Assembly: GCF_013001025.1 (NCBI RefSeq) | Contig: NZ_CP053021.1 | Span: forward strand, 2,880,001-2,944,000 | Direction of reading: 5' to 3' | Source: Sphingobium yanoikuyae | GTDB taxonomy: Bacteria; Pseudomonadota; Alphaproteobacteria; Sphingomonadales; Sphingomonadaceae | Length of the DNA stretch: 64,000 nt | Part shown: piece by piece, positions 18,303 through 37,377 of the stretch | Numbering within the stretch: the first letter of the stretch is position 1 | How the letters are laid out: the number at the start of each line of letters is the position of its first letter | Position numbers and translations under genes: made by a program | The notes under the pieces: model-generated | The model's database searches: none | What the model was told of the DNA's origin: nothing | Seen by the model: the letters and a program-made list of their open reading frames with translations, nothing else

Positions 18303-18316
18303 TGGTAGCGCTATCA
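18303..18316. promoter_or_regulatory. XylR/LacI-type operator, TonB receptor site 1
   Basis: TGGTAGCGCTATCA, near-perfect 14-bp palindrome 47 bp upstream of the receptor ATG. It is identical to the site before xylX at 37364 and nearly identical to the TTAGCGCTACCA operator core I recall for the Caulobacter xylose promoter. It lies downstream of the TTGACA element at 18347-18352 (minus strand). Confidence 0.75.
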
Positions 18317-18334
18317 GATGCAGACCAATAAAGT

Positions 18335-18366
18335 GCCCGTCCCAATTGTCAAGATATGGGACGGGC
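18335..18366 (-). promoter_or_regulatory. Inverted repeat spanning the -35 of the receptor promoter
   Basis: GCCCGTCCCA (18335-18344) and TGGGACGGGC (18357-18366) are a perfect 10-bp inverted repeat. The 12-bp loop contains TTGACA (minus strand, 18352-18347), a consensus -35. The hairpin, followed by ACTTTATT on the minus strand, could be a terminator for the upstream GH2 gene, an operator, or both. Confidence 0.55.
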
Positions 18367-18371
18367 GAAAA

Positions 18372-18385
18372 TGGTAACGTTATTA
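18372..18385. promoter_or_regulatory. XylR/LacI-type operator, TonB receptor site 2
   Basis: TGGTAACGTTATTA, a variant of the 14-mer at 18303 (three differences) sitting between the GH2 stop and the receptor promoter. Its centre is 69 bp from the first site, with the -35 between, which would allow cooperative binding or a small loop. Confidence 0.5.
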
Positions 18386-18389
18386 ATTT

Positions 18390-21071
18390 TCAGCGGACTG
18401 TGGCATTTGTGCTGATGACGGCCTGCGCCGCGGTCAGGCCCGGTGCGCTGGCGCGGACGGTTACCCGCCCCTTCTCGCCCGGCTTGGCCTTCACGATCAC
18501 TAGCGCCAGGCCATTGAAAGCCTTGCGATCTTTCGACGGAAAGGCAGTCAGATCGGTCGGGTCGCCATTGTCGGTGGCAATGATCTCGCCCGGTCCCTCG
18601 ATCGAGAAGCGGATGTCCTGCTTGGCGGCAGGGACGACATTGCCGTCCTTGTCGAGGATCTTGAGCGTCACGAAACTGAGGTCACGACCGTCATCGGCGA
18701 TGGCGGAGCGATCGGCGGTCAGCGACAGTTTCGCCGCCTCGCCCACGGTGCGGATCGTCTCGGTCGCCCAGGGCTGGCCCTTCTTCCAGGTGACGACCTT
18801 CACCTCGCCCGGTTCATAGACGACATAGTCCCAGCGGAAGCGATATTCATAATCGCGCTTCTTGACCTTGCCCTGCGACTTGCCGTTGATGAACAGTTCC
18901 GCCTCGTCGGCCGAGGAGAAGACATGAACCGGCGTGATCTGGCCGACGCGGTCAGGCCAGGTCCAGTGCGGCAGGATATGCGCGAATTTGAGGTCGGGCC
19001 GCCAGCGCGCCTGGTAGAGCCAGAAGCGGTCCTTGGGGAAGCCGGCGAGATCGAGGATGCCGGAATAGGAACTGCGCGACGTGTAATAGGGTGTCGGTTC
19101 GCCCAGATAATCGAAGCCGGTCCAGACGAACTCGCCCGCGACATAGGGATTCTGGTCATCGGCGGCCCAGACCCGATCGGGCGAGGAGCCAAAATCGGCG
19201 GCGTGCATCTCATAGGCGGAGACCTGATGCGTGTCGGGATTGCCGCCCGACCAGGGGCGCACCGGACCGCTGATCGCGCCGGCCACCGGGAACATATATT
19301 CGCCGCGACTGGACAGGGCCGATGCGCTTTCGGTGGACAGGATGACCTTGTCCGGGAATTTCGCGCGGAAGGCGGGATATTGGCCGACGATGCCGCGAAT
19401 GCCGGCGCCCTGATAATTGAGGCTGATGACGTCCACGGTGGTGGGCAGAGCCATGTCCGCCTTGGCATAGTTCATCGCGCTGGTGGCGGGCCGGGTCGGG
19501 TCTTCCTGATGCGCGATGGCGACCAGTTCGCGGCCGATCTTCGCCCCCGCCTCACCATCATATTGTTCGCCGACCTCGTTGCCGATGCTCCAGATGATGA
19601 TCGAGGGATGGTTGCGGTCGCGGCGCAGCATGGCGCGCGCGTCGGCCTCATGCCAATCCGGGAAGATCAGGTGGAAGTCGTGCGGGGTCTTCTTCTTCTC
19701 CCAGCTGTCGAACACCTCGTCCATCACCAGGAAGCCCATGCGGTCGGTGAGTTCGAGCAGTTCGGGCGCGGGCGGATTATGGCTCATGCGCACGGCGTTG
19801 GTGCCCATGTCGCGCAATATTTCGAGCTGGCGCTCGGCCGCGCGGGCGTTGAAGGCTGCGCCGATCGCACCGAGATCATGATGATTGTTGACGCCGCGCA
19901 GGGGGATCTGCTCACCATTGACGATCACGCCCTTGTCGGGATCGAACTTGATGTCGCGCACGCCGAAGCGGGTTTCGTAGCTGTCGATCAGCTTGCCGCC
20001 CTGGGTCACGGTGGAGACGGCGACATAGCGGTTGGGCGCCTGCGTCGGCGGCGGGCCCCAGAGGCGCGGGTTGCTGAGGATCGTGCTGCCCTTCAGCTCC
20101 GCCTTGCCATGGGGGGCGATGCTGGTGGACTGGCGGGCGATGCTGGCGACCGGGCGGCCGATGCGCTTGCCGCTGGCGTCGATCGCATAGAGAGCGGTCG
20201 CGACCTCGACCTGCGCCGGGGTGTCGCCGTCATTGTCGAGGGTGAGGCTCAGGTCCACGCTGGCCTGCGCCTTGCTGACCTGCGGCGTGCGGACGATGCT
20301 GCCCCACTGGCCGACATGGACCTTGTTGGTGGTGGTGAGATAGATGTCGCGATAGAGGCCGCCGCCCGGATACCAGCGCGCCGAAGCCTGGGGATTGTCG
20401 AGGCGGATCACGAGTTGGTTCTGGCCGCCCGGCACCGCATAGGGGGTGAGGTCGAGGCGGAAGCTGTTATAGCCATAGGGCCAGCCGCCGACGAGCTTTC
20501 CATTCAGCCAGACGGCGGCGTAGGACATCGCCCCTTCGACATCGAGGAAGATCGACTTGCCCTTGTCGCTGGCGGGGATGGTCAGCGCCTTGCGATACCA
20601 GCCGATGCCCCAGCTGGGCAGGCGGCCCATGCCGCCATAGGGGCCATCCTTGATGAACGGGCCGGCGATCGCCCAGTCGTGCGGCAGGTCGACATGGGTC
20701 CAGCCGCTGTCGTCGAAGCCGGGCTGGACATAGGATACGGTGCCGCCCGGATTGCCGGCGGGACGGGTGTGATGCCTGGCGGGATCGGCGATGAAGGGAT
20801 TGGCGCTGGGCAATATCCAGGGCTTGAGCACGCGGGCGCCGCTGTCGTCCACCTGCACCGCCGCGTCGGGACGGGCGTCGGCCACCTTGCCGTCGCCGGC
20901 ATCCTCGATCGGCGGACGGACATCATAGCGCAGATCCTCGATCAGGCCGGCGGGATCTCCCTTGGTGAAGCGCCAGTCGCGGCTGATCGAGACGCTGTCG
21001 CGCGGCGCGGCCAGCAAGGTCGCAGGGCTGAGCAGGCAGGAGGCGAGCAGGATGGTGCGCAGGGTCTTCAT
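18390..21071 (-). CDS. Secreted GH2 glycoside hydrolase (beta-galactosidase/beta-glucuronidase type)
   Basis: Extracytoplasmic family 2 hydrolase, 893 aa, with a signal peptide (MKTLRTILLASCLLSPATLLAA). Order: sugar-binding domain (about 30-260, WTHVDLPHDWAIAGP is typical), immunoglobulin-like domain (about 265-385), catalytic barrel (about 390-680) with acid/base Glu in IIWSIGNEVGEQ (about 499) and nucleophile Glu in ILSTESASAL (about 580), then C-terminal beta domains with a Big-type fold. Sequence alone does not separate galactosidase from glucuronidase. Placement 11 bp downstream of uxuB, in the uronate operon, makes glucuronide or galactoside side-chain removal from hemicellulose likely. 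A hairpin follows the stop. Confidence 0.88.
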   Translation of the reverse strand: MKTLRTILLASCLLSPATLLAAPRDSVSISRDWRFTKGDPAGLIEDLRYDVRPPIEDAGDGKVADARPDAAVQVDDSGARVLKPWILPSANPFIADPARHHTRPAGNPGGTVSYVQPGFDDSGWTHVDLPHDWAIAGPFIKDGPYGGMGRLPSWGIGWYRKALTIPASDKGKSIFLDVEGAMSYAAVWLNGKLVGGWPYGYNSFRLDLTPYAVPGGQNQLVIRLDNPQASARWYPGGGLYRDIYLTTTNKVHVGQWGSIVRTPQVSKAQASVDLSLTLDNDGDTPAQVEVATALYAIDASGKRIGRPVASIARQSTSIAPHGKAELKGSTILSNPRLWGPPPTQAPNRYVAVSTVTQGGKLIDSYETRFGVRDIKFDPDKGVIVNGEQIPLRGVNNHHDLGAIGAAFNARAAERQLEILRDMGTNAVRMSHNPPAPELLELTDRMGFLVMDEVFDSWEKKKTPHDFHLIFPDWHEADARAMLRRDRNHPSIIIWSIGNEVGEQYDGEAGAKIGRELVAIAHQEDPTRPATSAMNYAKADMALPTTVDVISLNYQGAGIRGIVGQYPAFRAKFPDKVILSTESASALSSRGEYMFPVAGAISGPVRPWSGGNPDTHQVSAYEMHAADFGSSPDRVWAADDQNPYVAGEFVWTGFDYLGEPTPYYTSRSSYSGILDLAGFPKDRFWLYQARWRPDLKFAHILPHWTWPDRVGQITPVHVFSSADEAELFINGKSQGKVKKRDYEYRFRWDYVVYEPGEVKVVTWKKGQPWATETIRTVGEAAKLSLTADRSAIADDGRDLSFVTLKILDKDGNVVPAAKQDIRFSIEGPGEIIATDNGDPTDLTAFPSKDRKAFNGLALVIVKAKPGEKGRVTVRASAPGLTAAQAVISTNATVR

Positions 21072-21082
21072 CAGGGGCTCCG

Positions 21083-22543
21083 TCAGAGCTGGGCGAGCGC
21101 AGCGCGGGCGCCGTCTGCTTCGAGGATGGCGAGCCAGCGGATCAGCGCGGCGCGGAAGGCGGCGTTGCCGGCAAGGTCGGCGGGCACCACGGCATCGAAG
21201 GCCAGGATCGCGTCGACACGGGCTTGCGTAGAGGATGCGTCGGCCAGCCGGGCGGTGATGGCGGCGGCGAGCGGATCGTCGACGACATGGGCTTCGCCCC
21301 GGTCATCGACGCCGGCCTGCCAGCGGACCCAGGCGGCGACGGCGAGCGACAGGGCATCGATCCCCTGCCCTGCCGACAGCCGCGCGGCGATGGTGGCGAG
21401 CAGGCGCTGGGGCAGCTTTTGCGATCCGTCCATCGCGATCTGGCGGGTGCGATGCTGCAGGGTCGGATTGTCGAAGCGCGCCATCAGCTCGCGGCGATAG
21501 GCGGCGACGTCCAGTTCGGGCGGCGGCGACAGCGTGGTCTGCGCCTCGTCCCACAGACTTTCGACGAAATGCCGGGCTTCGGGCAGCGCGAGCACTTCAT
21601 GGACATGGTCGATGCCGGCGAGGCCGCCGAGATAGGCGATGCCGCTATGCGCGCCGTTGAGCAGGCGCAGCTTCGCCTCCTCCCAGGGGGCAACGGCGGC
21701 GGTGACCTGAACCCCCGCGCCGAAATCCGGGCGCGGGCCGCAGAATTTATCCTCGATCACCCATTGCAGGAAGGGTTCGGTCTTGACCATTGCCTGATCC
21801 TCGACGCCGAGCCGGGCGGCGAGCGCGGCGATGTCGGCGTCGGTGGTGGCGGGGACGATGCGGTCGACCATGGTTTCGGGGAAGGCCCCTTCTGCCGCGA
21901 TCCAGTCGGCCAGTGCCGGGTCGTGCCGGGCAGCGAGCGCCAGCACGGCGTTGCGCAACCGGGTGCCGTTGTGCGGCAGATTGTCGCAACTGATCGCGGT
22001 GAAAGGCGGCAGGCCCGCCGCCTGGCGCACGGCCAGCGCCGCGACGAGGAAGCCGGGCGCAGTCTGCGGCGCGGCGAGCGAGGCAAGGTCTGCGGCGAGT
22101 TGGGGATCGCCCTCGATCAGGGCGCCGGTCGCGGGATCGAGCTTATAGCCCTTCTCGGCCACGGTCAGGGTGACGATATGGGTGTCGGGCGCGGCGAGCG
22201 CGGCGACCAGTGCGGCCGGGTCTTCCGGGGCGACCAATACCTGGCTGACCACGCCGATGATGCGCGCCTGCTCGGCCGAACCATCGCGCACCAGCATGGT
22301 GTAGAGGCAGTCCTGCGGCATCATCTGGTCGCGCACGCCGGGCGAACGCAGCGACGCGGCAATCACGCCCCAGCGCAGGTCGCCGGCGGTCAGGGCATCA
22401 TCGAAGATCACCGCCTGATGCGCGCGGTTGAAGGCACCGATGCCGAGATGGACGACGCCGGGGCGAACCGCCGCGCGATCATAGCCGGGACGGACGATAT
22501 CGGCGGGCAGGCCGGCGAGCGTGGCGGACGATAGACGGGTCAC
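21083..22543 (-). CDS. uxuB: Fructuronate reductase (mannitol dehydrogenase family)
   Basis: NAD-dependent reductase of 486 aa that converts D-fructuronate to D-mannonate, feeding ManD. The N-terminal Rossmann domain begins near residue 28 with VHLGIGAFNRAHQAV, and the C-terminal mannitol-dehydrogenase domain contains the catalytic-lysine region KLRLLNGAHSGIAYLG (about 290-305) with the family K...N...H pattern. Mannitol, altronate and mannonate dehydrogenases share the fold; adjacency to manD and a hexuronate transporter fixes the likely role. The start codon is GTG, 4 bp after the MFS stop, with only a distant GAGG, so coupling to upstream translation is likely. Confidence 0.87.
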   Translation of the reverse strand: MTRLSSATLAGLPADIVRPGYDRAAVRPGVVHLGIGAFNRAHQAVIFDDALTAGDLRWGVIAASLRSPGVRDQMMPQDCLYTMLVRDGSAEQARIIGVVSQVLVAPEDPAALVAALAAPDTHIVTLTVAEKGYKLDPATGALIEGDPQLAADLASLAAPQTAPGFLVAALAVRQAAGLPPFTAISCDNLPHNGTRLRNAVLALAARHDPALADWIAAEGAFPETMVDRIVPATTDADIAALAARLGVEDQAMVKTEPFLQWVIEDKFCGPRPDFGAGVQVTAAVAPWEEAKLRLLNGAHSGIAYLGGLAGIDHVHEVLALPEARHFVESLWDEAQTTLSPPPELDVAAYRRELMARFDNPTLQHRTRQIAMDGSQKLPQRLLATIAARLSAGQGIDALSLAVAAWVRWQAGVDDRGEAHVVDDPLAAAITARLADASSTQARVDAILAFDAVVPADLAGNAAFRAALIRWLAILEADGARAALAQL

Positions 22544-22547
22544 AGGA

Positions 22548-23822
22548 TCAGACAGCCTCTTGCGAGAGAGTCACGGGCACATAGCGCGGGACGATAAGGT
22601 GCAGCACCAGCAGCGCCAGCAGATAGGCACAGGATGCGACGATGAAGATCGGCTGGAAGCTGCCGACGGTTTCCAGGATGATGCCGGCGAACTTGGCCAT
22701 CAGCATGCCGCCGATCGCGCCGGCCAGCCCGCCAAGGCCGACCACTGACCCCGCCATCCAGCGCGGAAAGAGATCGCCCGGCAGCGCATAGACATTGGCC
22801 GAGAAGCCCTGATGCCCGGCGCAGGCGAGGCCGATCAGGCCGACCGCGATCCACATGCTGGGCGCCTGGGCAGCGAACGCGATCGGCAGGGCGCAAAGCC
22901 CGGCGCAGAACATCGCCGTCTTGCGGGCGCGGTTGATGTTCATGCCCCGGCCCATCAGGCGCGACGACAGCCAGCCGCCCGCGACCGAACCGACATCGGC
23001 CAGCAGATAGACGGCGATCAGCGGCGGGCCGAAGTCCAGCATCTTCACGCCATATTGCTTGTTGAAGAAATCGGGCAGCCAGAAGAGGAAGGTCCACCAG
23101 ACCGGATCGATGAGGAAGCGCGAGGTCATATAGGCCCAGGTCTGGCGATAGCGGAACAGGGTGCGCCACTTGACCGGGCGGGCCGGTTCCTGCGGGTCCG
23201 CCTCGATCCAGGCCAGTTCCTCGGCGCTCAGCCCCTTCTTTTCGCGCGGGCGGCGATAGAAGGTCAGCCAGGCGGCGAGCCAGAAGACCGTCAGCAGGCC
23301 GGTGAGGATGAAGGCCCAACGCCAGCCCAGCGTGACCGCAATGACCGGGACGATCAGCGGCGTCAGGATCGCGCCGACATTGGAGCCGGCATTGAAGATG
23401 CCGATGGCGAAGGCGCGTTCCTTCTTGGGAAACCATTCATTGGTGGCGGCGATCGCCGCCGGGAATGTCCCCGCCTCACCAATTGCCAGTGGGATGCGGG
23501 CGAACAGCATGCCGGCGGTCGAGGTGAAGAAGATGTGCATGACATGGCCGACCGTCCACAGGCCGACCGCCAGCGCATAGCCGGCCCGCGCGCCGATCCG
23601 GTCGATCAGGCGGCCGAAGGCGACATAGGCGATGCCGTAACCCGCCTGAAACCAGATGGCGAGATCGGCATAGCCGCTCTCGCTCCAGCCATAGTGGGCC
23701 TGAAGATCGGGCTTGAGCGTCGGCAGGACAAGCCGGTCGATATAGCTCAGCACCACCGCCGCAAAGAGCAGGCCGCAGACGATCCAGCGGACCTTTCCGG
23801 ACGGTTTGGGAATCGTGGTCAT
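22548..23822 (-). CDS. MFS hexuronate transporter (ExuT-like)
   Basis: Inner-membrane transporter of 424 aa, anion:cation symporter group. Twelve hydrophobic segments are visible, the first at about residues 14-32 with the ACS signature SYIDRLVLPTLKPDL. GRLIDRIGARAGYALAVGLW is the loop 2-3 MFS motif and GEAGTFPAAIAATNEWFPKKER is typical of glucuronate/galacturonate carriers. Between uxuB and manD, so import of glucuronate or small aldouronates is the expected substrate. The start at 23822 is chosen over a longer frame whose N-terminus would read through a repeat element. Confidence 0.88.
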   Translation of the reverse strand: MTTIPKPSGKVRWIVCGLLFAAVVLSYIDRLVLPTLKPDLQAHYGWSESGYADLAIWFQAGYGIAYVAFGRLIDRIGARAGYALAVGLWTVGHVMHIFFTSTAGMLFARIPLAIGEAGTFPAAIAATNEWFPKKERAFAIGIFNAGSNVGAILTPLIVPVIAVTLGWRWAFILTGLLTVFWLAAWLTFYRRPREKKGLSAEELAWIEADPQEPARPVKWRTLFRYRQTWAYMTSRFLIDPVWWTFLFWLPDFFNKQYGVKMLDFGPPLIAVYLLADVGSVAGGWLSSRLMGRGMNINRARKTAMFCAGLCALPIAFAAQAPSMWIAVGLIGLACAGHQGFSANVYALPGDLFPRWMAGSVVGLGGLAGAIGGMLMAKFAGIILETVGSFQPIFIVASCAYLLALLVLHLIVPRYVPVTLSQEAV

Positions 23823-23842
23823 TGGCCACTCCGACAATGTTT

Positions 23843-23931
23843 CGTCATTCCCGCGAGCGCGGGAATCCACCTCCGGACCTCGCGATTGGGGCTATGGCAG
23901 GAGATGGATCCCCGCTTTCGCGGGGATGACG
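23843..23931. repeat. REP-type intergenic repeat pair (ATTCCCGCG family)
   Basis: Two palindromes, ATTCCCGCGAGCGCGGGAAT (23847-23866) and ATCCCCGCTTTCGCGGGGAT (23908-23927), bounded by CGTCAT and ATGACG, form one large inverted repeat between manD and the transporter gene. It could form a stable RNA structure inside the operon and set differential expression. Confidence 0.8.
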
Positions 23932-23960: not shown

Positions 23961-25172
23961 TCACCAGTTGAACATGGTGCCGTCTTCGAGCCGGTTCACC
24001 GGCAGGAATGCGCGATTATATTCATATTTGGCGGCCAGTTCCTCGTCGATGTCGACGCCCAGGCCCGGCTTGTCGCCTGGATGCATGGCGCCGTTTTCGA
24101 ACGTATAGGCATGGGGGAAGACGGCATCGGTCTCGGGCGTGTGGCGCATATATTCCTGCACCCCGAAATTGGGCACCGACAGGTCGAAGTGGAGCGCGGC
24201 GGCCATGCAGACCGGCGACAGGTCGGTCGCGCCGTGGCAGCCGGTGCGGACCTGATAGAGATCGGCGAGGTTCGCGATCTTGCGCAGATGGCTGATGCCG
24301 CCGGCATGGACCACGGTGGCGCGGATATAGTCGATCAGCTGGTTCTGGATCAGCTCGCGGCAATCATGGATCGAGTTGAAAATCTCGCCCACGGCCAGCG
24401 GCGTGGTGGTGTGCTGGCGGATCAGCTTGAACGCGTCCTGATTTTCAGCAGGCGTCGCATCTTCCAGCCAGAAGGGGCGATATTGTTCCAGATCCTTGCC
24501 CAGACGCCCGGCCTCGATCGGGGTCAGGCGATGATGGATGTCGTGCAGCAGATGCACGTCCCAGCCCAGCGCCTCGCGGGCGGCCTTGAACAGTTCGGGG
24601 ACGATGCGGAGATATTTGCTGGTGTTCCAGACATTTTCGGTCGGCAGGTCGGCGTCGGCGGGTTCGTAGAAATATTTGTCCTTCGACACGCCATAGGTCG
24701 ACGCCATGCCAGGGACGCCGCACTGGATGCGGATCGCCTTGTAACCCTGTGCCTGATATTCCAGCGCGACCTTGACCGTGTCCTCGATCGTCGTGCCATT
24801 GGCATGGCCATAGACCATGACGCTTTCACGGCTGGCGCCGCCGAGCAGCTGGTAGACCGGCAGGCCGGCAATCTTGCCCTTGATGTCCCAGAGCGCGGTA
24901 TCGACGGCGGCGATGGCCGACATCGTCACCGGGCCGCGGCGCCAATAGGCGCCCTTGTAGAGATATTGCCAGATATCCTCGATCTGGTGCGCATCCCGGC
25001 CGATCAGGCAGGGAATGACATGGTCCTGCAGATAGGAGGCGACGGACAGTTCGCGGCCGTTGAGGGTCGCATCGCCCAGACCATAGACGCCCTCTTCGGT
25101 CTCGATCTTGAGGGTGACGAAATTGCGACCAGGGCAGGTAACGATGACCTTGGCGCCGGTAATCTTGGGCAT
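23961..25172 (-). CDS. manD: D-mannonate dehydratase (enolase superfamily, ManD)
   Basis: Mg-dependent dehydratase (403 aa) converting D-mannonate to 2-keto-3-deoxygluconate. It aligns throughout with the characterised Novosphingobium aromaticivorans ManD as I recall it: [39 protein letters not shown], the YWRRGPVTM loop, metal ligands in the [24 protein letters not shown] and LAVGEIFN segments, the [10 protein letters not shown] region and the C-terminal LEDGTMFNW. The start at 25172 has AGGGGAG upstream; a longer frame begins inside the control region. Adjacent to uxuB and a hexuronate carrier, it defines a glucuronate-to-KDG route. Confidence 0.94.
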
Positions 25173-25189
25173 GGATGCTCCCCTAAAAC

Positions 25190-25200
25190 TGGTATGACCA
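25190..25200. promoter_or_regulatory. Candidate GntR/UxuR-type operator before manD
   Basis: TGGTATGACCA, arms TGGT/ACCA, 17 bp upstream of the manD start. TGGTnnnACCA is the core recognised by FCD-type GntR regulators, including UxuR/ExuR and FadR. No gntR gene is in the window. Confidence 0.55.
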
Positions 25201-25239
25201 ATCATGGCCATAGGCGATAATCAATTTGCCTTCAACGAT

Positions 25240-25259
25240 ATTGGTCAGGCCAATACCAT
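25240..25259. promoter_or_regulatory. Second GntR-type motif before manD
   Basis: ATTGGTCAGGCCAAT (25240-25254) is a perfect 5-bp-arm inverted repeat, and the overlapping TGGTCAGGCCAATACCA gives further TGGT/ACCA arms. It fills the gap right after the GH3 stop, about 50 bp from the first motif. Confidence 0.5.
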
Positions 25260-27637
25260 CAGGCGATCTCCAATGTAACCGTCTGAAGCGTGGCGCTGTC
25301 CGGCCCGACCATGATGTCGAACAGGCCCGGCTCGACCACTTCGCGCATGTCGAGATTCCACAGCGCGACTGCTTCCGGGCCGATGGTCAGACGCACGGTG
25401 CGGCTTTCGCCGGGCGCCAGCGCGATCCGTTCGAAGCCCTTCAATTCCTTGAGCGGGCGCGTGACCGAGGCGGTCTGGTCATGGACATAGAGCTGCACCA
25501 CTTCCTCGCCCGCGACAGTGCCGACATTGCGGACATCGACCTCCACCGTGACTTCGCCGCCCACGCCGATGCGGCTGGCCGACAGGCGCGGCGGACCGAA
25601 GGCGAATTTGGTGTAGCTGAGGCCGAAGCCGAACGGGAAAAGCGGGCTGGCATCGGCGAAGAGATAGCCGCGCCGCGAGGATGGCTTGCGGTTGTAGAAG
25701 ATCGGGATCTGGCCCGCGTCGCGCGCGACGGTGACGGGCAGCTTGGCCCCCGGATTGACGTCTCCGAACAATATGTCGGCCATGGCCGTGCCGCCCTCCT
25801 GCCCCGGATACCAGCATTCGATCAGCGCATTGGCGCCATCGACCACGGCGGGATAGCTGGGCGGGCGACCGTTGATGGCGCACACCACCACCGGCTTTCC
25901 GGTCGCCTTCATCGCGGCGAACAGGTCATTCTGCTCACCGACCAGATCGAGGCTGGTGCGATCGCCCAGATGGTTTTTGGCAAAGCCTTCGCGGCTGGTC
26001 TGTTCCGTGTCGCCGATGGCGAGCAGGATGATGTCGGCGGTCTTTGCGACCTCGACCGCTTCGGCGATCAGCTGGCGGTTCTTCGCCGGGTCGGCCAGCA
26101 GCACTTCGTCCACCGAGCGGTCCTCACTCTGGGTGATGAAGACGCCCTGGGCATGGACGATGTCCGCCCGGTTGCCGAGCTTCGCCTTCACCCCATCCAG
26201 CAGCGAGACCGCCTGGCGCGGGATCGAGGAATAGCCGCCCAGCCGCGCGACCGCGGCATTGGGCCCGATAACCGCGACCTTGCGATGGGCGCCGGGCTTG
26301 AGCGGCAAGGTGCCGTCATTCTTGAGCAAGACGATCGACTTGTGCGCCGCCTTGAGCGCCAGCGCGCGCGCCTCCGCATTGCCGGTGAGCGCATCATAGT
26401 CGGCGCGCGGCCAGGGATTTTCGAACAGGCCCGCGCGGAACTTGAGCGTCAACATCCGCGTGCAGGCGAGGTTGACGGCCTCAAGGGGCACTTTTCCGGC
26501 GCGGACCTGTTCGACGAGCGTGCGATAGGCCAGGCCATCGGGCAGCTCGCAATCGACCCCGGCGCGGAGCGCGGCACGGGCCGTCGCCTCCAGGTCGGGC
26601 TGGACATGGTGAATGGTGTCGAGTTCGGGGACGGCGCCATAATCGCTGACCACGGCGCCATCGAAATGCCATTCGCCGCGCAGGATATCGCCGAGCAGCC
26701 ACTTGTTCTGATGGCTGGGGACGCCGTCGATCTCGTTATAGCTGGGCATGACGGCGGCGATGCCGGTGCGCTTGACCACCTGACGGAAGGGCGGGAAGAA
26801 ATTCTCGCGCAGTTCGCGCTCGCTGATCGGCGCGGGCGCGATATTCTCGCCCGCCTGCGGCTGGCCATGGCCGGTCATATGCTTGAGCGTGGCCATGACC
26901 TTGTCCGGGCCGATCTGCTTGCCCTCCCCCTGCAGGCCCAGCACGGCAGCAACGCCCATCTCGCCGCAGAGATAGGGGTCTTCGCCAAAGGTTTCCTCGA
27001 TCCGGCCCCAGCGCGGGTCGCGGGCGATGTCGACCACCGGCGAAAGCGCGAGATGGACGCCGCGCGCACGGACTTCCCGAGCAATAACCGACTGGACATC
27101 GGTCATGAGCTGGCGATCGAAACTGCCGGCAAGGCCGATCGCCATCGGGAACATGGTGGCGTCGGTCGCCATGTAGCCGTGGAGCGATTCCTCATGGAAG
27201 AGGATCGGGATGCCGAGGCGGGTCTCTTCCACCGCCCATTTCTGGACGGCGTTGATGAAGGCGACGGTATCGGCCGGGGTGCGCCAGCGCGCGCCGACGC
27301 CGCCGGCCTGGGTCGATCCATTGGGCGCGCCGCGCCGGTCGGACGGGCGGGTAATCTGGCCGAAGCTCGCCGGATAAGCCTTGCTCGCCTTGGCCGGCGA
27401 GAAGGTGAGATCATCCATGATGTCGGCCTTGGTCGCCCAGAGCGCGATGATCTGGCCGACCTTTTCCTCCAGAGTCATGCGGCCGAGCAGGTCGCGCACG
27501 CGCAGGTCGATCGGTGCGGTCGCATCCTTGTAGAGCGGACCGCCCTTCCCCTTCGCCGCCAGCGGGGCGGCAGCAAGCGCGGAAGTGGAGGCGAGCAGGC
27601 CAAGGGCCTGGCGGCGGGCGAAGCGGGTCGTCATCAT
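25259..27637 (-). CDS. Secreted GH3 beta-xylosidase/beta-glucosidase A
   Basis: Family 3 glycoside hydrolase (792 aa) of the BglX/xylosidase type, likely releasing xylose or glucose from oligosaccharides in the periplasm. The N-terminus TTRFARRQALGLLASTSALAAA looks like a Tat-type signal with a twin Arg. Catalytic barrel about 35-390 with RDPRWGRIEETFGEDP, KHMTGHGQPQ and the nucleophile Asp in GAVVSDYGAVPE (about 331). The second alpha/beta domain (about 410-640) and the fibronectin-III-like domain (about 690-780, GEEVVQLYVHD) are complete. It begins right after its paralogue and precedes manD, so one transcript can carry both GH3 genes and the uronate genes. Confidence 0.92.
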   Translation of the reverse strand: MMTTRFARRQALGLLASTSALAAAPLAAKGKGGPLYKDATAPIDLRVRDLLGRMTLEEKVGQIIALWATKADIMDDLTFSPAKASKAYPASFGQITRPSDRRGAPNGSTQAGGVGARWRTPADTVAFINAVQKWAVEETRLGIPILFHEESLHGYMATDATMFPMAIGLAGSFDRQLMTDVQSVIAREVRARGVHLALSPVVDIARDPRWGRIEETFGEDPYLCGEMGVAAVLGLQGEGKQIGPDKVMATLKHMTGHGQPQAGENIAPAPISERELRENFFPPFRQVVKRTGIAAVMPSYNEIDGVPSHQNKWLLGDILRGEWHFDGAVVSDYGAVPELDTIHHVQPDLEATARAALRAGVDCELPDGLAYRTLVEQVRAGKVPLEAVNLACTRMLTLKFRAGLFENPWPRADYDALTGNAEARALALKAAHKSIVLLKNDGTLPLKPGAHRKVAVIGPNAAVARLGGYSSIPRQAVSLLDGVKAKLGNRADIVHAQGVFITQSEDRSVDEVLLADPAKNRQLIAEAVEVAKTADIILLAIGDTEQTSREGFAKNHLGDRTSLDLVGEQNDLFAAMKATGKPVVVCAINGRPPSYPAVVDGANALIECWYPGQEGGTAMADILFGDVNPGAKLPVTVARDAGQIPIFYNRKPSSRRGYLFADASPLFPFGFGLSYTKFAFGPPRLSASRIGVGGEVTVEVDVRNVGTVAGEEVVQLYVHDQTASVTRPLKELKGFERIALAPGESRTVRLTIGPEAVALWNLDMREVVEPGLFDIMVGPDSATLQTVTLEIA

Positions 27638-27640
27638 GGC

Positions 27641-30016
27641 TTATTGCACCGTCAGGGTGGTGGACTGGAGCGCGACCGAGCTGTTGCCGGTCATGATCTC
27701 GAAATCGCCGGGTTCGACGACGCGGTGCATCTGGTCGTTCCACATCTGCAGCGCTTCGGGACCGACGGTGAAGGTGATGGTGCGGCTCTCGCCGGGTTTC
27801 AGCGTGACGCGCTGGAAGCCCTTCAGCTCCTTGACCGGGCGGGTGACCGAGCTGACCTTGTCGCGGATATAGAGCTGGACGACCTCGTCCCCTTCGCGCG
27901 CGCCGGTATTGCGGACATCGACCGAGACGCTGGTCTTGCCGCCGGTGCCGATCTTGGTGGCGGAGAGGCGCGGCGCCGACAGGCTGAAGCTGGTGTAACT
28001 GAGGCCGAAGCCGAAGGGATAGAGCGGGTCGGTGGTGTCGAACAGATAGCCGCGCCGGGCCGAGGGCTTCATATTGTAGAAGAGCGGCAACTGGCCGGCC
28101 GAGCGCGGGACGGTGACGGGCAGCTTGCCGCCCGGATTGACATCGCCGAACAGGATGTCGGCCACGGCATTGCCGCCCTGCTCGCCCAGATACCAGCCTT
28201 CCAGGATGGCATTGGCCTGTTCGCTGACCTTGACCGTGGAGGCCGGACGACCGTTGATGAGGACGACGGTGATCGGCTTGCCCAGCGCCTTCAATGCATC
28301 GAACAGTTCCTGCTGCTCGCCGACCAGGTCGAGGCTGGGGCGGTCGCCCAGATGATTGTCGGCCCAGCCCTCGCGGCTCGACTGTTCGGTGTCGCCCAAG
28401 GTCAGGATGATGCGGTCGACATTGCGCGCCGCCTCGACCGCCTGCGCGATCAGCTTGCGATTTTCGGCCGGGTCCGACTTGGTGACGCTGTCGGCCCACC
28501 AGTCGTCATCCTCGGTGATCTTGACGCCCTGGGCGAAGACGATGTTCGCCTTGGTGCCGACCCGCGCCTTGATCCCTTCTAGGATGGAGACGCTGTGCGG
28601 CGGCTGGCCATAATAGCCGCCCAGCCGCGCGACCGCCGCGCTGGGGCCGATCACCGCGATCGTGCCTTCGGGCTTCAAGGGCAGCATGCCGTCATTCTTG
28701 AGGAGGGTGATGGAGCGCTGGGCCGCGGTGCGGGCGAGCGCGCGGGCCTCTTCATTATTGGTGATCGCGGCCGCCGCATTGGCGTCGGCATAGGGATTTT
28801 CGAACAGGCCGGCGCGGAACTTCAGCTCCAGCATGCGCCGCACGGCGAGATCGACCTTCGCCTCGCTGACCTTGCCCTCGCGCACCAGCTTGCCGAGCGT
28901 GGCGTAGGACAGGCCCTCGGGCAGGTCCGCGTCCACGCCGGCATCGAGCGCACGCGTCGCCGCCTCTTCCAGATTGGCGGCGATATGGTGGATGCTCATC
29001 AGCTGGTCGACGGCCGAATAATCGGAGACGACGGCGCCGCGAAAGCCCCACTCTTCCCGCAGGATATTTTCCAGCAGCCAGCGATTGGCGTGGCTAGGCA
29101 CGCCGTCAATCTCGTTATAGCTGGCCATCACCGCCTCGATGCCGGTGCGTTTCACCACCTGTTCGAAGGGCGGGAAGAAATTCTCGCGCAGTTCGCGTTC
29201 CGACACCGGCGCCGGGCCGATATTGGTGCCGCTTTCGGGCTGGCCATGGCCGGTCAGATGCTTGAGCGTGGCGAAGACATGATTGGGCTGGAGCATGCGC
29301 GAACGGCCAACACCCTGAAGCCCCTCCACCGCCGCAACGCCCATTTCGCCGACCAGATAGGGATCCTCGCCATAGGTTTCCTCGATCCGGCCCCAGCGCG
29401 GGTCGCGGGCGATGTCGACCACGGGCGAGAGCACCATCGGCACGCCCCGCGCGCGGATTTCGCGGGCGATCACCTGATTGACCTGGCGCAGCATGGCCGG
29501 ATCCCAGCTCGACGCCATGGCGATCGACTGGGGGAAGCTGGTGGCGCCGACGGCGGCATAGCCGTGCAGTCCTTCCTCATGGAACAGGATCGGGATGCCG
29601 AGGCGCGTCTGCGTCATCGCCCATTTCTGCAAGCCGTTGACCAGTGCCACGGTGCGGCGCGGATCGCGGCCGGGCACGACGCGCGGGCTGAAACTGCCAC
29701 GACCGTCCGACGGACGGGTGAAATGGCCGATGCCGTTGGGGAAGGTCGGGCTGAGCTTGCCGGGGTCCAGTTCGCCCTGCGCGTCCAGCAGCTTCACCTT
29801 GTCGGTCCAGACGGTGGTGATCTGGGCGATCTTTTCATCCAGCGTCATGCGCGCCAGCAGATCATCGACGCGCGCCTCGATCGGGGCGGACGCATCCTTG
29901 TAGAGCGGGCGGGCCGACTGGCCGGTTGCCGGCGCCGCTATAACGGGCGTGAGCGGCGCCGCCATCACCAGCGACAGCGCTGATGCTGCGCACAAAAACT
30001 GAACTGACCGGATCAC
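27641..30016 (-). CDS. Secreted GH3 beta-xylosidase/beta-glucosidase B
   Basis: Second family 3 hydrolase (791 aa), colinear with its downstream neighbour over the whole length but clearly diverged. Shared motifs: RIGEET-type block RDPRWGRIEETYGEDP, KHLTGHGQPESG, nucleophile Asp in GAVVSDYSAVDQ (about 331), FNIII block GDEVVQLYIRDK. The start is a GTG at 30016 preceded by GGAGAGGGG, giving a Sec signal peptide (VIRSVQFLCAASALSLVMAA, cleaved near AIAAP-like ..VIAAPA). The frame stays open far upstream, but that extension lies antisense within the GH67 gene. It is divergent from GH67 with a shared operator. Confidence 0.92.
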   Translation of the reverse strand: MIRSVQFLCAASALSLVMAAPLTPVIAAPATGQSARPLYKDASAPIEARVDDLLARMTLDEKIAQITTVWTDKVKLLDAQGELDPGKLSPTFPNGIGHFTRPSDGRGSFSPRVVPGRDPRRTVALVNGLQKWAMTQTRLGIPILFHEEGLHGYAAVGATSFPQSIAMASSWDPAMLRQVNQVIAREIRARGVPMVLSPVVDIARDPRWGRIEETYGEDPYLVGEMGVAAVEGLQGVGRSRMLQPNHVFATLKHLTGHGQPESGTNIGPAPVSERELRENFFPPFEQVVKRTGIEAVMASYNEIDGVPSHANRWLLENILREEWGFRGAVVSDYSAVDQLMSIHHIAANLEEAATRALDAGVDADLPEGLSYATLGKLVREGKVSEAKVDLAVRRMLELKFRAGLFENPYADANAAAAITNNEEARALARTAAQRSITLLKNDGMLPLKPEGTIAVIGPSAAVARLGGYYGQPPHSVSILEGIKARVGTKANIVFAQGVKITEDDDWWADSVTKSDPAENRKLIAQAVEAARNVDRIILTLGDTEQSSREGWADNHLGDRPSLDLVGEQQELFDALKALGKPITVVLINGRPASTVKVSEQANAILEGWYLGEQGGNAVADILFGDVNPGGKLPVTVPRSAGQLPLFYNMKPSARRGYLFDTTDPLYPFGFGLSYTSFSLSAPRLSATKIGTGGKTSVSVDVRNTGAREGDEVVQLYIRDKVSSVTRPVKELKGFQRVTLKPGESRTITFTVGPEALQMWNDQMHRVVEPGDFEIMTGNSSVALQSTTLTVQ

Positions 30017-30070
30017 GACGCCCCTCTCCAATTTTGTCGCGGCTTTCCTTTTTGCTTGCCGCCGATCAAC

Positions 30071-30084
30071 TGATAGCGTTACCA
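30071..30084. promoter_or_regulatory. XylR/LacI-type operator between GH3 and GH67
   Basis: TGATAGCGTTACCA, which on the other strand is TGGTAACGCTATCA, one base from the sites at 18303 and 37364. On the minus strand it begins 25 bp after the first base of TTGACA (30109-30104), overlapping the expected -10 of the GH3 promoter. Confidence 0.68.
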
Positions 30085-30123: not shown

Positions 30124-30166
30124 ATGCACCAAAAAATTGCCTGCGGGCAAAGGGGGAGAGGACCGA

Positions 30167-32311
30167 ATGTTTGCGCGCCTGTTTTGCTGGATCATGGCCA
30201 GCGTCCTGCTGATCGGCGCGCCGCGCGCCTGGGCCGAGGATGGCTATGATCTGTGGCTGCGCAACGTGCCGGCCGATCCAGCCGCTGCCCAACAAATTGG
30301 GGCCAACGCGCGCAGCATTGTCGGCGGGGCCAGCCCTACCCTGATGATCGCCCGGCGGGAATTGCAGCGCGGCATTGCCGGGCTGACCGGCGTCACCGTG
30401 CCCCTGACAGCAACAGTGCAGCAAGGTGCGATCCTGCTGCAGTCGGCCGCGCGGCAGGACAAGCCATCGGTGCCGACCGACGGGCTGGGCGCTGACGGCT
30501 ATGCGATTCGCACCATGACGGTCGCGGGCAAGCCGGTGACGGTGATTGCCGGCGCGACCGATGTCGGCGTGCTGCACGGCGCCTATGCTTGGCTGCGCCT
30601 TGCCCGCACCGGCGCGGCGCTCGACCGGATCGATATGCGCAGCGCGCCGCGCATCGGCCTGCGCCTGCTCAACCATTGGGACAATCTGGATGGCACGGTG
30701 GAGCGCGGCTATGCCGGCCAGTCGATCTGGGACTGGTGGCGCCTGCCCGATTATAAGGGGCCGCGCTATACCGACTATGCCCGCGCCAACGCGTCGCTGG
30801 GCATCAATGGCACGGTGCTCAATAATGTGAATGCCAAGTCGGACAGCCTGACAGCCGCCTATATCGCCAAGGCGGCGGCGCTGGCCGACCTGTTCCGCCC
30901 CTATGGCATCAAGGTCTATCTGTCGGTCAAATGGACCGCGCCGATGGAACTGGATGGCCTGAAAAGCGCCGATCCGCTCGATCCGGCGGTTGCCGCCTGG
31001 TGGAAGGCCAAGGCCGACGAAATCTACAAGGCGATCCCCGATTTCGGCGGTTTCCTGGTGAAGGCGAACAGCGAGGGCCAGCCCGGCCCGCAGGATTACA
31101 AGCGCACCCATGCCGACGGCGCCAACATGCTGGCGGCCGCGGTCAAGCCGCATGGCGGCATCGTGATGTGGCGCGCCTTCGTCTATGCCCATGACAATCC
31201 CGACGATCGCGCCAAGCAGGCCTATAGCGACTTCAAGCCGCTCGACGGCCAGTTTGCCGACAATGTCATCGTCCAGGTGAAGAATGGCGCGATCGACTTC
31301 CAGCCGCGCGAACCCTTCCACCCGCTGTTCGGCGCGATGCCCAAGACGCCGCTGATGATGGAATTCCAGATCACCAAGGAATATCTGGGCCAGTCGACCC
31401 ACCTTACCTATCTGGGCACGCTGTTCGAGGAGGTGCTGAAGAGCGATACGCTGGCCAAAGGCAAGGGATCGACCGTCGCCAAGGTGATCGACGGATCGCT
31501 GGAAGGCCACAAGCTGACCGGCATCGCCGGGGTCGCCAATATCGGCGTCGACCGCGACTGGAGCGGGTCGATCTTCAACCAGGCGGACTGGTATGCGTTC
31601 GGTCGCATGGCGTGGGACACCGACCTGACCGCCGAGGCTGTCGCGCGCGAATGGGCGGCGCAGACCTTCTCGCCCGATCCCAGGGTGGTGACGCCGATCG
31701 TCGCGATGATGATGGGATCGCGCGAGGCGGCGGTCGACTATATGACGCCGCTGGGCCTAGCCCATATCATGGGCACTGGCCATCATTATGGCCCCGCCCC
31801 CTGGGTGTCCGAACTGGCGCGGCCCGAATGGAACCCGGTCTATTATCACAAGGCCGACAGGCAGGGCATCGGCTTTGACCGGACCAGGACGGGCAGCAAT
31901 GCCACCGGCCAATATGCGCCGGCGCTGGCGAAGCAACTGGACAATCCGAAGACCACGCCGGAGCGCGAGCTGCTGTGGTTCCACCATCTGCCCTGGGACT
32001 ATCGCCTGGCGTCTGGCGAGACGCTGTGGGACGGGCTGATCCATCATTATGACCGGGGCGTCGAAACGGTGGCGGCGATGCAGCGGGACTGGGCCAAGCT
32101 GAAGCCCCAGGTCGATGCCGAGCGCTTTGCGCAGGTCGAGACCTTCCTGGCGATCCAGCATCGCGAAGCCCAATGGTGGCGCGACGCCTGCATCGCCTAT
32201 TTCCAGTCGGTGTCCGGCCGCCCCCTGCCCGCCGGCAGCGCGGCGCCCGCCCATCCGCTCGACTGGTACAAGGCGCTGAGCTTCCCCTATGCGCCGGGGC
32301 ACCCGAAATGA
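30167..32311 (+). CDS. aguA: GH67 alpha-glucuronidase
   Basis: Removes 4-O-methyl-D-glucuronic acid from the non-reducing end of xylo-oligosaccharides. 714 aa with a signal peptide (MFARLFCWIMASVLLIGAPRAWA). Domains: N-terminal beta domain (about 30-150), TIM barrel (about 155-480), helical C-terminal domain. Family hallmarks are RLLNHWDNLDGTVERGYAG, the acid Glu in VKANSEGQPGP (about 301), and EFQITKEYLGQSTHL in the barrel. GGGGAGAGG precedes the ATG. It is divergent from the GH3 pair and 74 bp upstream of the LacI gene. The signal peptide suggests periplasmic action on imported oligosaccharides, whereas some GH67 enzymes are intracellular. Confidence 0.93.
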   Translation: MFARLFCWIMASVLLIGAPRAWAEDGYDLWLRNVPADPAAAQQIGANARSIVGGASPTLMIARRELQRGIAGLTGVTVPLTATVQQGAILLQSAARQDKPSVPTDGLGADGYAIRTMTVAGKPVTVIAGATDVGVLHGAYAWLRLARTGAALDRIDMRSAPRIGLRLLNHWDNLDGTVERGYAGQSIWDWWRLPDYKGPRYTDYARANASLGINGTVLNNVNAKSDSLTAAYIAKAAALADLFRPYGIKVYLSVKWTAPMELDGLKSADPLDPAVAAWWKAKADEIYKAIPDFGGFLVKANSEGQPGPQDYKRTHADGANMLAAAVKPHGGIVMWRAFVYAHDNPDDRAKQAYSDFKPLDGQFADNVIVQVKNGAIDFQPREPFHPLFGAMPKTPLMMEFQITKEYLGQSTHLTYLGTLFEEVLKSDTLAKGKGSTVAKVIDGSLEGHKLTGIAGVANIGVDRDWSGSIFNQADWYAFGRMAWDTDLTAEAVAREWAAQTFSPDPRVVTPIVAMMMGSREAAVDYMTPLGLAHIMGTGHHYGPAPWVSELARPEWNPVYYHKADRQGIGFDRTRTGSNATGQYAPALAKQLDNPKTTPERELLWFHHLPWDYRLASGETLWDGLIHHYDRGVETVAAMQRDWAKLKPQVDAERFAQVETFLAIQHREAQWWRDACIAYFQSVSGRPLPAGSAAPAHPLDWYKALSFPYAPGHPK

Positions 32312-32362: not shown

Positions 32363-32386
32363 ATGTCGAAGGCCCCGAAAAACTGA
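32363..32386 (+). CDS. Seven-codon leader ORF before lacI
   Basis: ATG at 32363 encodes MSKAPKN and stops in the TGATG overlap with the lacI start at 32386. The only good Shine-Dalgarno (AGAGAGG) is positioned for this ORF, while lacI has none of its own. It could enforce coupled, low-level repressor synthesis, or be the former N-terminus of the repressor separated by an indel. Confidence 0.4.
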   Translation: MSKAPKN

Positions 32387-33459
32387 TGGAAGCCAGAAGT
32401 TCCCGCCGCCAGCGCAACGCGCCCACCATCAACGATGTGGCGAAACATGCCGGCGTGTCGCCGATGACGGTGTCGCGGGTGATCAATGGCGAACAGGTGG
32501 TGCGGGCGGCAACCAAGGAGAAGGTGGAGGCGGCGATCGCCGCGCTCAACTACTCCCCCAGCGCCGCCGCGCGCAGCCTGGCGGGCGGCGACGAGACGCG
32601 GATCGGCCTGCTCTATTCCAACCCGTCCGCCTCCTATCTGTCGGAATTCCTGGTCGGGAGCCTCGACCAGTCGAGCCGCGCCGGCATCGACCTGGTCGTC
32701 GAGAAATGGGACGAGCAGACCGCGATCAAGGCGGTGGTCGACCATCTGGTGCGCGGCCGGATCGACGGCGTCGTGCTGCCGCCGCCGCTGTGCGACCATG
32801 AAGCGATGATCGATGCCCTGCGCGAGGCGGGCATCCCCGCCGTCGTGGTGGCGACCGGCCATGCGCCCGCCAGCCTGGCCGCGGTCAGCATCGACGACCG
32901 GGGCGCGGCCTATGAAATGACCCGGCACCTGATTGGCCTTGGCCATAACCGCATCGGCTTCATCAAGGGGCATCCGAACCTGAGCGCGAGCGAGGAACGC
33001 TATCAGGGCTATATCCGGGCGCTGGGCGAAGCCGGCATCGCGCTGGACGATGCGCTGGTGGAACAGGGTTTCTTCACCTACCGATCCGGTCTGGACGCGG
33101 CCGAGCATATATTGGCGCGGGACAATCCGCCGACCGCCATCTTCGCCAGCAATGACGACATGGCCGCCGCGACGGTGGCGATCGCCCATCGCAACGGACT
33201 GGACGTGCCGGGCGACCTTACCGTCTGCGGCTTCGACGACACCTCGCTCGCCACCACCATCTGGCCGGAACTCACCACCATCCGCCAGCCGATCAGCGCC
33301 ATGTCGCGGGCGGCGGTCGACCTGCTGGTGCGCCACATCAAGGGGCGCCGCGCCCAGAGCGAGGATGGCCCGCCGCACATGCTGCTGGACTATGAACTGG
33401 TCCGCCGCCAGTCCGACGCGGCGCCGCGGCTGCGCCCCAAGCACAAGGGCAGAAAATAG
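32386..33459 (+). CDS. xylR: LacI-family regulator, probable xylose-responsive repressor
   Basis: Repressor of 357 aa: N-terminal HTH and hinge (residues 12-62, TINDVAKHAGVSPMTVSRVI, with PSAAARSLAGG hinge helix) and a periplasmic-binding-like effector domain (about 68-335, including AVVVATGHAPAS and TVCGFDDTSLATTIWPELTT). It lies downstream of GH67 in the glucuronoxylan locus. LacI-type palindromes in this window (18303, 18372, 30071, 37364) match the operator described for the Caulobacter LacI-type XylR, so it is the best candidate to bind them. The gene symbol is by analogy; no effector test is possible from sequence. Translation appears coupled to a short upstream ORF. Confidence 0.8.
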   Translation: MEARSSRRQRNAPTINDVAKHAGVSPMTVSRVINGEQVVRAATKEKVEAAIAALNYSPSAAARSLAGGDETRIGLLYSNPSASYLSEFLVGSLDQSSRAGIDLVVEKWDEQTAIKAVVDHLVRGRIDGVVLPPPLCDHEAMIDALREAGIPAVVVATGHAPASLAAVSIDDRGAAYEMTRHLIGLGHNRIGFIKGHPNLSASEERYQGYIRALGEAGIALDDALVEQGFFTYRSGLDAAEHILARDNPPTAIFASNDDMAAATVAIAHRNGLDVPGDLTVCGFDDTSLATTIWPELTTIRQPISAMSRAAVDLLVRHIKGRRAQSEDGPPHMLLDYELVRRQSDAAPRLRPKHKGRK

Positions 33460-34770: not shown

Positions 34771-34803
34771 AAAAAGGGCGCCGGACCGGGTGGTCGGGCG
34801 CCC
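34771..34803 (-). terminator. purB terminator
   Basis: GGGCGCC (34776-34782) pairs with GGCGCCC (34797-34803), with an inner GACC/GGTC stem; the minus strand continues with TTTTT. It sits 38 bp beyond the purB stop. Confidence 0.88.
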
Positions 34804-34841
34804 TCTTCTTTACTGTCGCGCGGCGCTGTTCGCGCGTCGGG

Positions 34842-36158: not shown

Positions 36159-36445
36159 GGGCGAATCCTGCGGCTGGAGGGTGGATATTGCCGCGCCGCC
36201 TAGCAGCCCGCGCCCTTTGGAGCAATTGAGGAGGCTCCCCTGCCCCGCGCGCGCCTCATCCGGCCGCAATTATCCAAGCAAAGACAGTCGAACCGAAGCA
36301 TTTCATAAGTCCAAATGCGTAGATGAACCGATGTTCAGGAACTTTTCCTAGTCTTCATGTATTATGTGATGGCAATTAAGGCATGAAGCCAAAGCAGGCG
36401 CCCAATGCAGGCCCTGCGCGTTTCAATGATATAAAGGATGTCGCC
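36159..36445. other. Divergent promoter region of purB and the EF-hand gene
   Basis: 287 bp, increasingly AT-rich toward 36290-36380. It must contain promoters for both divergent genes, but no purine-repressor-like palindrome or riboswitch-like fold was recognised. Confidence 0.4.
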
Positions 36446-36859: not shown

Positions 36860-36919
36860 ATATTTCCCTTCCCGTCACGAAGGCAGGGAAAATACAGAAC
36901 CCCAAGCGGGTCGCACCGG

Positions 36920-36955
36920 GGCGGCATGTCACAGAACATGCCGCCTCTTTTTTTT
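36920..36955 (+). terminator. Terminator of the EF-hand gene
   Basis: GGCGGCATGT (36920-36929), loop CACAGA, ACATGCCGCC (36936-36945), then TCTTTTTTTT. A textbook intrinsic terminator. Confidence 0.93.
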
Positions 36956-36996
36956 ATGGCGGATGGCCGCGGTGCCGGGAACAGGCCCCGACCGGT

Positions 36997-37182
36997 TCAG
37001 CGACGCTTCTTGGTATAGAGCAGGGCGGCGACGATCGCGGCCGAGCCAATGCCCACGGCCGTGCCCATCCACACGGCCTTTCCGGCGGACTTGCGCGCCG
37101 CATCGGCGAGATCGGGGGCATTATCCTCTGGCTGGAGGGCTTCTGCGCCGGCGTCCGGCACGCTCTCTTGGTTCTTCTTCAT
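36997..37182 (-). CDS. Small single-pass membrane protein (61 aa)
   Basis: MKKNQESVPDAGAEAL and a further acidic segment precede one TM helix (about residues 37-56, VWMGTAVGIGSAAIVAALLY) and a basic tail TKKRR. AGGGGGA is 6 nt before the ATG at 37182. The longer open frame upstream has no leader features and is ignored. No family recognised; charge pattern suggests the N-terminus is outside or periplasmic. Function unknown. Confidence 0.65.
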   Translation of the reverse strand: MKKNQESVPDAGAEALQPEDNAPDLADAARKSAGKAVWMGTAVGIGSAAIVAALLYTKKRR

Positions 37183-37339
37183 AGTCCCCCTTCTATGCCG
37201 CAGCCCGGCGGGACTGAAAAGGGCTGACGTAGCGGCAAGGCCGGAAATTCGCCGTGCCATGCGCACGCCATGACGCCTGGCCCGCGGCCAGCAAAGCCCC
37301 GACGCCCCGCCCCTGCGAGCGATTTTCATCAGGGGGGTC

Positions 37340-37363
37340 TTGACTTGCACCGCCCTTCCATGT
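37340..37363 (+). promoter_or_regulatory. Candidate xylX promoter -35 and spacer
   Basis: TTGACT at 37340-37345 is a good -35. The operator begins 24 bp downstream of its first base, so the -10 (about 37363-37368) is inside the operator. The same spacing of TTGACA to operator is seen at the GH3 promoter. Confidence 0.5.
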
Positions 37364-37377
37364 TGGTAGCGCTATCA
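37364..37377. promoter_or_regulatory. XylR/LacI-type operator before the xylose operon
   Basis: TGGTAGCGCTATCA, identical over 14 bp to the TonB receptor site at 18303, 27 bp before the first xylX ATG. It matches the LacI-type operator core (TAGCGCTA) recalled for the Caulobacter xylX promoter. Confidence 0.78.

Follow-up and report, generated by a model that had tools for sequence, protein, structure and literature searches.

Glucuronoxylan and xylose genes of the window

The window analysed here, a stretch of 64,000 nucleotides from Sphingobium yanoikuyae (contig NZ_CP053021.1, positions 2,880,001 to 2,944,000), reads from its gene content as a glucuronoxylan locus adjoining an oxidative xylose operon (Table 1). 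Here, we show the positions of a 14-bp palindrome in promoters of both, its conservation among related bacteria and its co-occurrence with the LacI-family regulator encoded at 32386. We consider it highly probable that this palindrome is the operator (xyl-box) of the 32386 protein acting as a LacI-type repressor, and that xylose or a short xylo-oligosaccharide would derepress the set jointly.

Palindromic sites and promoter layout

TGGTAGCGCTATCA is present letter for letter at 18303-18316 and 37364-37377. A window search confirmed this identity, which the original prediction had reported together with two variants that were likewise recovered, namely TGGTAACGCTATCA on the minus strand at 30071-30084 (one mismatch from the 14-mer) and TGGTAACGTTATTA at 18372-18385 (three mismatches); the spacings that it gave between the −35 elements and the boxes at 37364 and 30071 are correct (Table 1). 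At up to three mismatches and on both strands, the 14-mer has 11 matches in the window as compared to a shuffle mean of 3.5, and none of 100 shuffles reached 11.

The promoter layout is retained in relatives. Exact boxes are found at 22 xylX promoters, that of the window and those of 21 relatives, and in 21 of these a TTGAC begins 21-26 bp ahead of the box; the box precedes xylX by about 14-48 bp (extrapolated starts). The promoter at 30071 has its TTGACA on the minus strand and would thus serve the leftward operon of the glycoside hydrolase (GH) family 3 genes, not GH67; a box is found at the equivalent place in nine of the ten closest loci (L038-L047). In receptor promoters, the box near the presumed start site is retained together with TTGAC and a T-rich stretch; one Novosphingobium and six of the eight closest genomes that were searched have a box of the 18303 type ahead of the receptor homologue.

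We regard the site at 18372 as most probably an additional, weaker element within the receptor promoter. An identical copy is present in the receptor promoter of Sphingobium scionense, and five other receptor promoters retain half of it, CGTTACCA or CGTTAACA, 68-70 bp upstream; the best second element of the Novosphingobium receptor promoter lies at 57 bp. Second-element scores were 15.8 bits for the window and S. scionense and −4.3 to 10.0 for the other five receptor promoters, the 95% and 99% levels for shuffled upstream DNA of the window being −0.6 and 5.4. Because only the window and S. scionense copies score high, the case for the receptor half-box rests on its constant spacing.

Table 1 Features of the xylan and xylose locus, its predicted operators and the distant arabinose-type operon
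Feature	Position	Strand	Remarks
TonB-dependent receptor, TonB-Xanth-Caul subfamily	15392..18256	-	
Predicted main operator	18303..18316	-	TGATAGCGCTACCA in receptor-gene direction; ~46 bp upstream of TonB-receptor start, 3' of TTGACA and T-rich −10
Weak upstream element	18372..18385	-	TAATAACGTTACCA; 69 bp from 18303 operator
Glycoside hydrolase family 2 (GH2)	18390..21071	-	
Fructuronate-reductase-like dehydrogenase (Mannitol_dh)	21083..22543	-	below curated NCBIfam cut-off
MFS transporter	22548..23870	-	best NCBIfam match galactonate type, below cut-off
D-mannonate dehydratase ManD	23961..25211	-	above cut-off
GH3 enzyme	25259..27637	-	
GH3 beta-xylosidase-like enzyme	27641..30019	-	below cut-off; start taken as a GTG near 30016 (ribosome site, signal-peptide-like N-terminus)
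Predicted operator	30071..30084	.	between leftward GH3 operon and rightward GH67
−35 TTGACA of leftward promoter	30109-30104	-	25 bp before 30071 box
GH67 alpha-glucuronidase	30137..32311	+	
LacI-family regulator, proposed XylR	32386..33459	+	74 bp 3' of GH67
−35 TTGACT of xylX promoter	37340..37345	+	24 bp before 37364 box
Predicted operator	37364..37377	+	26 bp upstream of xylX start
XylX-like 2-keto-3-deoxyxylonate dehydratase	37404..38555	+	FAA hydrolase domain, weak match; named by context
D-xylose 1-dehydrogenase XylB	38552..39310	+	above curated NCBIfam cut-off
SMP-30/gluconolactonase family, probable xylonolactonase	39222..40187	+	tentative start
Sugar porter, XylE-like	40217..41629	+	above cut-off for sugar porter model, below it for XylE model
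Aldose 1-epimerase	41719..42483	+	
Arabinose-type operon	L207:9137-15418, C1 ~3.292 Mb		ILVD/EDD dehydratase, aldehyde dehydrogenase, GguC/AraD1-family protein, GFO/IDH/MocA oxidoreductase, GntR/FCD regulator

Placement of the palindrome in the genome

Sites across the 5.94-Mb genome were located by pattern search, and matrix scores were computed on fetched stretches. The consensus TGRTARCGYTAYCA has exactly five sites in the genome, while about 0.11 are expected from composition. Three of them are the window promoters of the TonB receptor, GH3/GH67 and xylX, and two belong to distant GH43 genes, one directly upstream of a GH43 gene with a beta-xylosidase C-terminal domain (C1:3081181) and one directly upstream of a second GH43 gene (C1:4696590). 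These two genes bear out the expectation of further regulon members; a GH43/GH10 cluster on the second contig, with imperfect sites, does so less surely.

Sites with one mismatch to the consensus were rejected as a class of regulon members, since the seven found are close to the approximately 4.7 expected by chance. Two are retained for context only, namely 18372 in the receptor promoter and C2:26302, upstream of the series GH43, MGH1-like and GH10 on the second contig. Among the others, C1:2745970 (L018:9971) is inside a gene for a family 11 rhamnogalacturonan lyase and was taken as chance, and the sites at 166696, 2855143, 3528711 and 4368178 have no obvious adjoining xylan gene in the lists of open reading frames (ORFs; the IclR protein at 3528711 was also scanned against Pfam). 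Two further GH10 genes have no box of at least 7 bits in about 4 kb each. Contig C2 carries a second xylan cluster (L021:10003, L021:19266) of GH43, MGH1-like and GH10 genes and a gene whose start resembles that of a TonB receptor; the cluster has a LacI gene of its own and imperfect boxes.

The box in related genomes

For the relatives we collected 80 loci around the genes of the closest LacI relatives, taking up to 10 kb of DNA on either side. They contain 47 exact boxes, spread over 32 loci, and for 41 of these boxes the nearest matched gene start is that of xylX (21), GH67 (16) or the divergent GH3 (4). The remaining six are nearest to a receptor (2), another GH3 (1), lacI (1) or none (2), with the four assignments among them depending on weak homologues or greater distances. 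In the eight closest genomes (seven Sphingobium and one Sphingomonadaceae metagenome-assembled genome, MAG), 36 boxes were counted as compared to 20 for the reversed control. Of the 36, 33 are found at homologues of the window set or at GH43 or GH115 genes, several of them within over-long ORF calls, and L177, L186 and L187 make up the unassigned remainder. The box also accompanies single genes at other addresses in relatives, including GH2, GH43, GH115 and, in one Novosphingobium, a homologue of ketoglutarate semialdehyde dehydrogenase (KGSADH); GH2 homologues on other contigs have their own box in four of the eight closest genomes.

Changed palindromes were found before xylX in several loci, CGGTACCGCTAACA in five that lack the box (L048, L051, L052, L053 and L083; four Sphingomonas and one uncultured bacterium) and TGATACCGGTAACA in L062, and may represent operator drift. 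In addition, four loci from Massilia and Telluria (L071, L080, L085, L115) encode a LacI protein of 60-61% identity beside homologues of GH10, GH67, GH3 and xylX-xylB and have no exact box; these are Betaproteobacteria, and the xylan/xylose locus seems to have crossed classes.

Co-occurrence of the box with the LacI-family regulator

The 32386 protein combines a LacI helix-turn-helix (PF00356, 2.7e-19) with a sugar-binding domain (PF13377, 5.3e-34), its best solved relatives include CcpA, PurR and LacI, and it is 99% identical to a protein of S. scionense. Its own gene has no site of at least 7 bits. Between this gene and that for adenylosuccinate lyase is an ORF of 207 amino acids without a Pfam match (window 33729-34352).

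Presence of the box follows that of the window LacI across the family. Among 149 genomes profiled at E 1e-100, the box is present in 32 of 34 with the window LacI and in 16 of 115 without it (Fisher p 2.6e-18, a value that overstates the evidence because the genomes are related and the cut-off was set after viewing the match list); a partial match of 2.9e-92 in genome G007 was scored as lacking the orthologue. The 34 LacI-bearing genomes contain 131 box sites, as compared to 21 in the other 115 genomes and to 65 sites of the reversed pattern in the same 34. With a looser cut-off of E 1e-60, the box is present in 41 of 76 genomes with the LacI and in 7 of 73 without. Of the nine LacI proteins encoded in the genome, with three of the eight others also profiled, the 32386 protein is the strongest candidate; the original prediction had already named it as the likely regulator.

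Chance repeats, paralogous repressors and a possibly divided xylose pathway

Several observations, besides the inflated p value, weigh against a shared operator of one repressor. The window contains 355 different 14-mers in two or more copies, of which five are near-palindromes, and a repeated near-palindrome also turns up in 25 of 200 window shuffles; because repeated 14-mers are this common, identity at two window sites is weak evidence alone. Genome counts are not above those of the reversed pattern, neither for exact copies of the wider motif TGNTARCGYTANCA (5 versus 4) nor, with up to two mismatches allowed, for the narrower motif (74 versus 229). All four exact sites of the reversed pattern are inside called ORFs, yet 30071 and C1:3081181, among the five real sites, were likewise assigned by this caller to over-long ORFs. 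Among the 80 loci of LacI relatives, 48 have no exact box in the fetched DNA, including Massilia and some Sphingomonas, and the choice of loci around LacI genes, which are often within xylan clusters, partly biases this set towards boxes near xylan genes. More distant genomes are less orderly, with 18 outlying box regions fetched from six of them being clearly at xylan or xylose genes in six cases, weakly in one and not in 11 (one of nine outlying boxes clearly so in Sphingomonas populi), and only 11 of 28 boxes from four box-rich genomes of the family being at reference-set homologues with at least 45% identity (four of nine boxes were fetched in one genome). The original prediction had pointed to scatter upstream of unrelated genes as an observation that would count against it; the exact sites of the S. 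yanoikuyae genome show no such scatter, while some distant genomes have many exact boxes at genes for which no link to xylan was apparent.

The raw counts in window and genome speak for a chance repeat, or for a general half-site motif of the LacI family that has no specific role. We nevertheless regard this explanation as highly improbable, as all five exact sites precede xylan or xylose genes (30071 and C1:3081181 were placed by hand before the true starts, using ribosome site, signal peptide and homologues), as opposed to the four intragenic sites of the reversed pattern, and the site is retained at a near-fixed distance in relatives. The weight of the palindrome evidence is in the location of the exact sites and in other genomes, not in raw counts.

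It also counts against a single repressor that two other LacI genes are near box-bearing clusters, 10 kb from C1:4696590 and 9 kb from C2:26302. With nine LacI proteins in the genome, the palindrome could be read by several paralogues (e.g., C1:4706904 and C2:35721), placing the distant GH43 and GH10 genes under other repressors in a mosaic regulon; a two-mismatch box, CGTTAGCGCTATCA, between the TonB-receptor-like gene and the LacI paralogue on C2 fits such an arrangement. This explanation appears unlikely. At E 1e-95, the cut-off used for the three profiled paralogues, the C2 paralogue is present in only 2 and the C1:4706904 paralogue in only 4 of the 149 genomes, own genome included, and they can therefore not explain the box in 48 genomes. 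The third, C1:4535900, has matches in 11 genomes, and its ten places outside the own genome coincide with those of relatives of the window LacI; the three profiled paralogues do not explain the box distribution. Moreover, homologues of the GH43 gene at C1:4696590 (GH43_4696; 65-77%) are located within 10 kb of window-LacI relatives in 6 of 80 loci (L049, L054, L055, L056, L081, L097). The recognition helix is SPMTVSRV in the window LacI as opposed to SIRTVSRV and SAMTVSNV in the two paralogues, which does not settle specificity; across the loci, helix residues showed no clear split with the box, as SPM was found in 24 with and 26 without it (8 of 80 loci not parsed) and also occurs with the changed palindromes of L062, L048, L051, L052 and L053.

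A final point against one switch for the whole set concerns xylose catabolism. The xylX operon with XylX, XylB, lactonase and transporter has a box, but the candidates for xylonate dehydratase and KGSADH do not, with a best score of 0.7 bits in 20 kb. The genome encodes three ILVD/EDD proteins, two of which look like IlvD and Edd; the third, in an NCBIfam dihydroxy-acid dehydratase subfamily, is the only candidate found for a xylonate/arabonate dehydratase. None of the three has an upstream box of at least 7 bits in about 4 kb each. The aldehyde dehydrogenase beside the dehydratase candidate in the arabinose-type operon was taken as KGSADH by context, the survey being confined to this one among the aldehyde dehydrogenases of the genome. 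The predicted boxes before xylonate dehydratase and KGSADH genes were thus not found at these candidates of the S. yanoikuyae genome, and the proposal of one regulon for uptake, hydrolysis and oxidation, although strengthened by genome placement, relatives and the 149-genome profile, appears not to extend to these two steps here. A link between box and KGSADH exists in the clade, as a 65%-identical aldehyde dehydrogenase of Novosphingobium sp. PhB165 is downstream of an exact box.

It is tempting to propose, tentatively and with somewhat more doubt than confidence, that XylR control is limited to some steps of the oxidative route for xylose (XylB, lactonase, XylX), with dehydratase and KGSADH belonging to the operon of the GntR regulator, and jointly with this that the receptor half-box 68-70 bp upstream might allow a repressor loop or a tetramer around the −35. 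If control were divided in this manner, xylose flux would need two regulators at once, and the second signal would be xylonate or a later intermediate. The missing link to dehydratase and KGSADH raises the question how two sugar circuits share half a pathway.

Proposed mechanism and comparison with known systems

In the mechanism that we infer, including binding, repression, inducer and operon structure, a repressor dimer would occupy the box and keep the genes off when xylose is absent. The box would cover the −10 region at xylX and at the leftward GH3 promoter, and lie around the start site of the TonB-receptor gene. Release of the repressor by xylose or a short xylo-oligosaccharide would jointly induce outer-membrane uptake, hydrolysis by GH3, GH67 and GH43 enzymes, hexuronate handling and part of xylose oxidation. 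As the repressor gene is downstream of GH67 and probably co-transcribed with it, negative feedback would result. Instead of xylose, the signal could be hexuronate or oligosaccharides of glucuronoxylan, given that the leftward operon near GH67 includes mannonate dehydratase and a fructuronate-reductase-like gene and that, according to parts of PMC7748154, xylo-oligosaccharides induce the xylR locus of Xanthomonas. We judge this to be quite improbable, as the box set includes the xylX-xylB operon and xylose frees XylR from the box in Caulobacter, as described in sections of PMC10380989.

The palindrome is real, and the predicted regulon is well supported and ordinary in kind. It supplies, for a Sphingobium, a list of xylan genes that are likely to share a switch, and a candidate set of xylose-inducible promoters; regulons of this kind are already known from Caulobacter and Xanthomonas, and its kind is no surprise. 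No Sphingobium publication on a xyl-box regulon was among the matches listed by a search whose scope excluded most subscription journals and RegPrecise, and such a report may be in print.

Comparative genomics of LacI regulons (PMC4052901, in part) likewise describes LacI regulators that respond to sugars and have palindromic operators close to the operons they control; a term search of its main text, supplements and RegPrecise being outside its scope, gave no word beginning with 'sphingomonad'. The comparison with Caulobacter XylR is at the level of regulator type and regulated genes, and relatives from the Caulobacter side among the 80 best LacI loci are Caulobacterales MAGs only, with 62-66% identity (L057, L062, L064). 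The Caulobacter xylose operon holds all five enzymes, whereas the dehydratase and KGSADH candidates of S. yanoikuyae are elsewhere and have no box. XylR of Caulobacter crescentus (Stephens 2007, cited in PMC10380989) is, as far as sections of the citing article describe it, also a LacI-type repressor of xylose genes whose operator is released by xylose, and the same sections report this release for Xanthomonas. According to parts of PMC7748154 and PMC10380989, XylR of Xanthomonas campestris and X. citri is a LacI-type repressor that acts through a 14-bp palindrome on genes for xylan degradation and xylose catabolism, and the window box is one base from the xyl-box given there, TGGTAGCGCTAACA. 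Xylose isomerase is used in Xanthomonas, unlike here, where the box is on the oxidative xylX-xylB operon. The window system most likely works like the XylR systems of Xanthomonas and Caulobacter.

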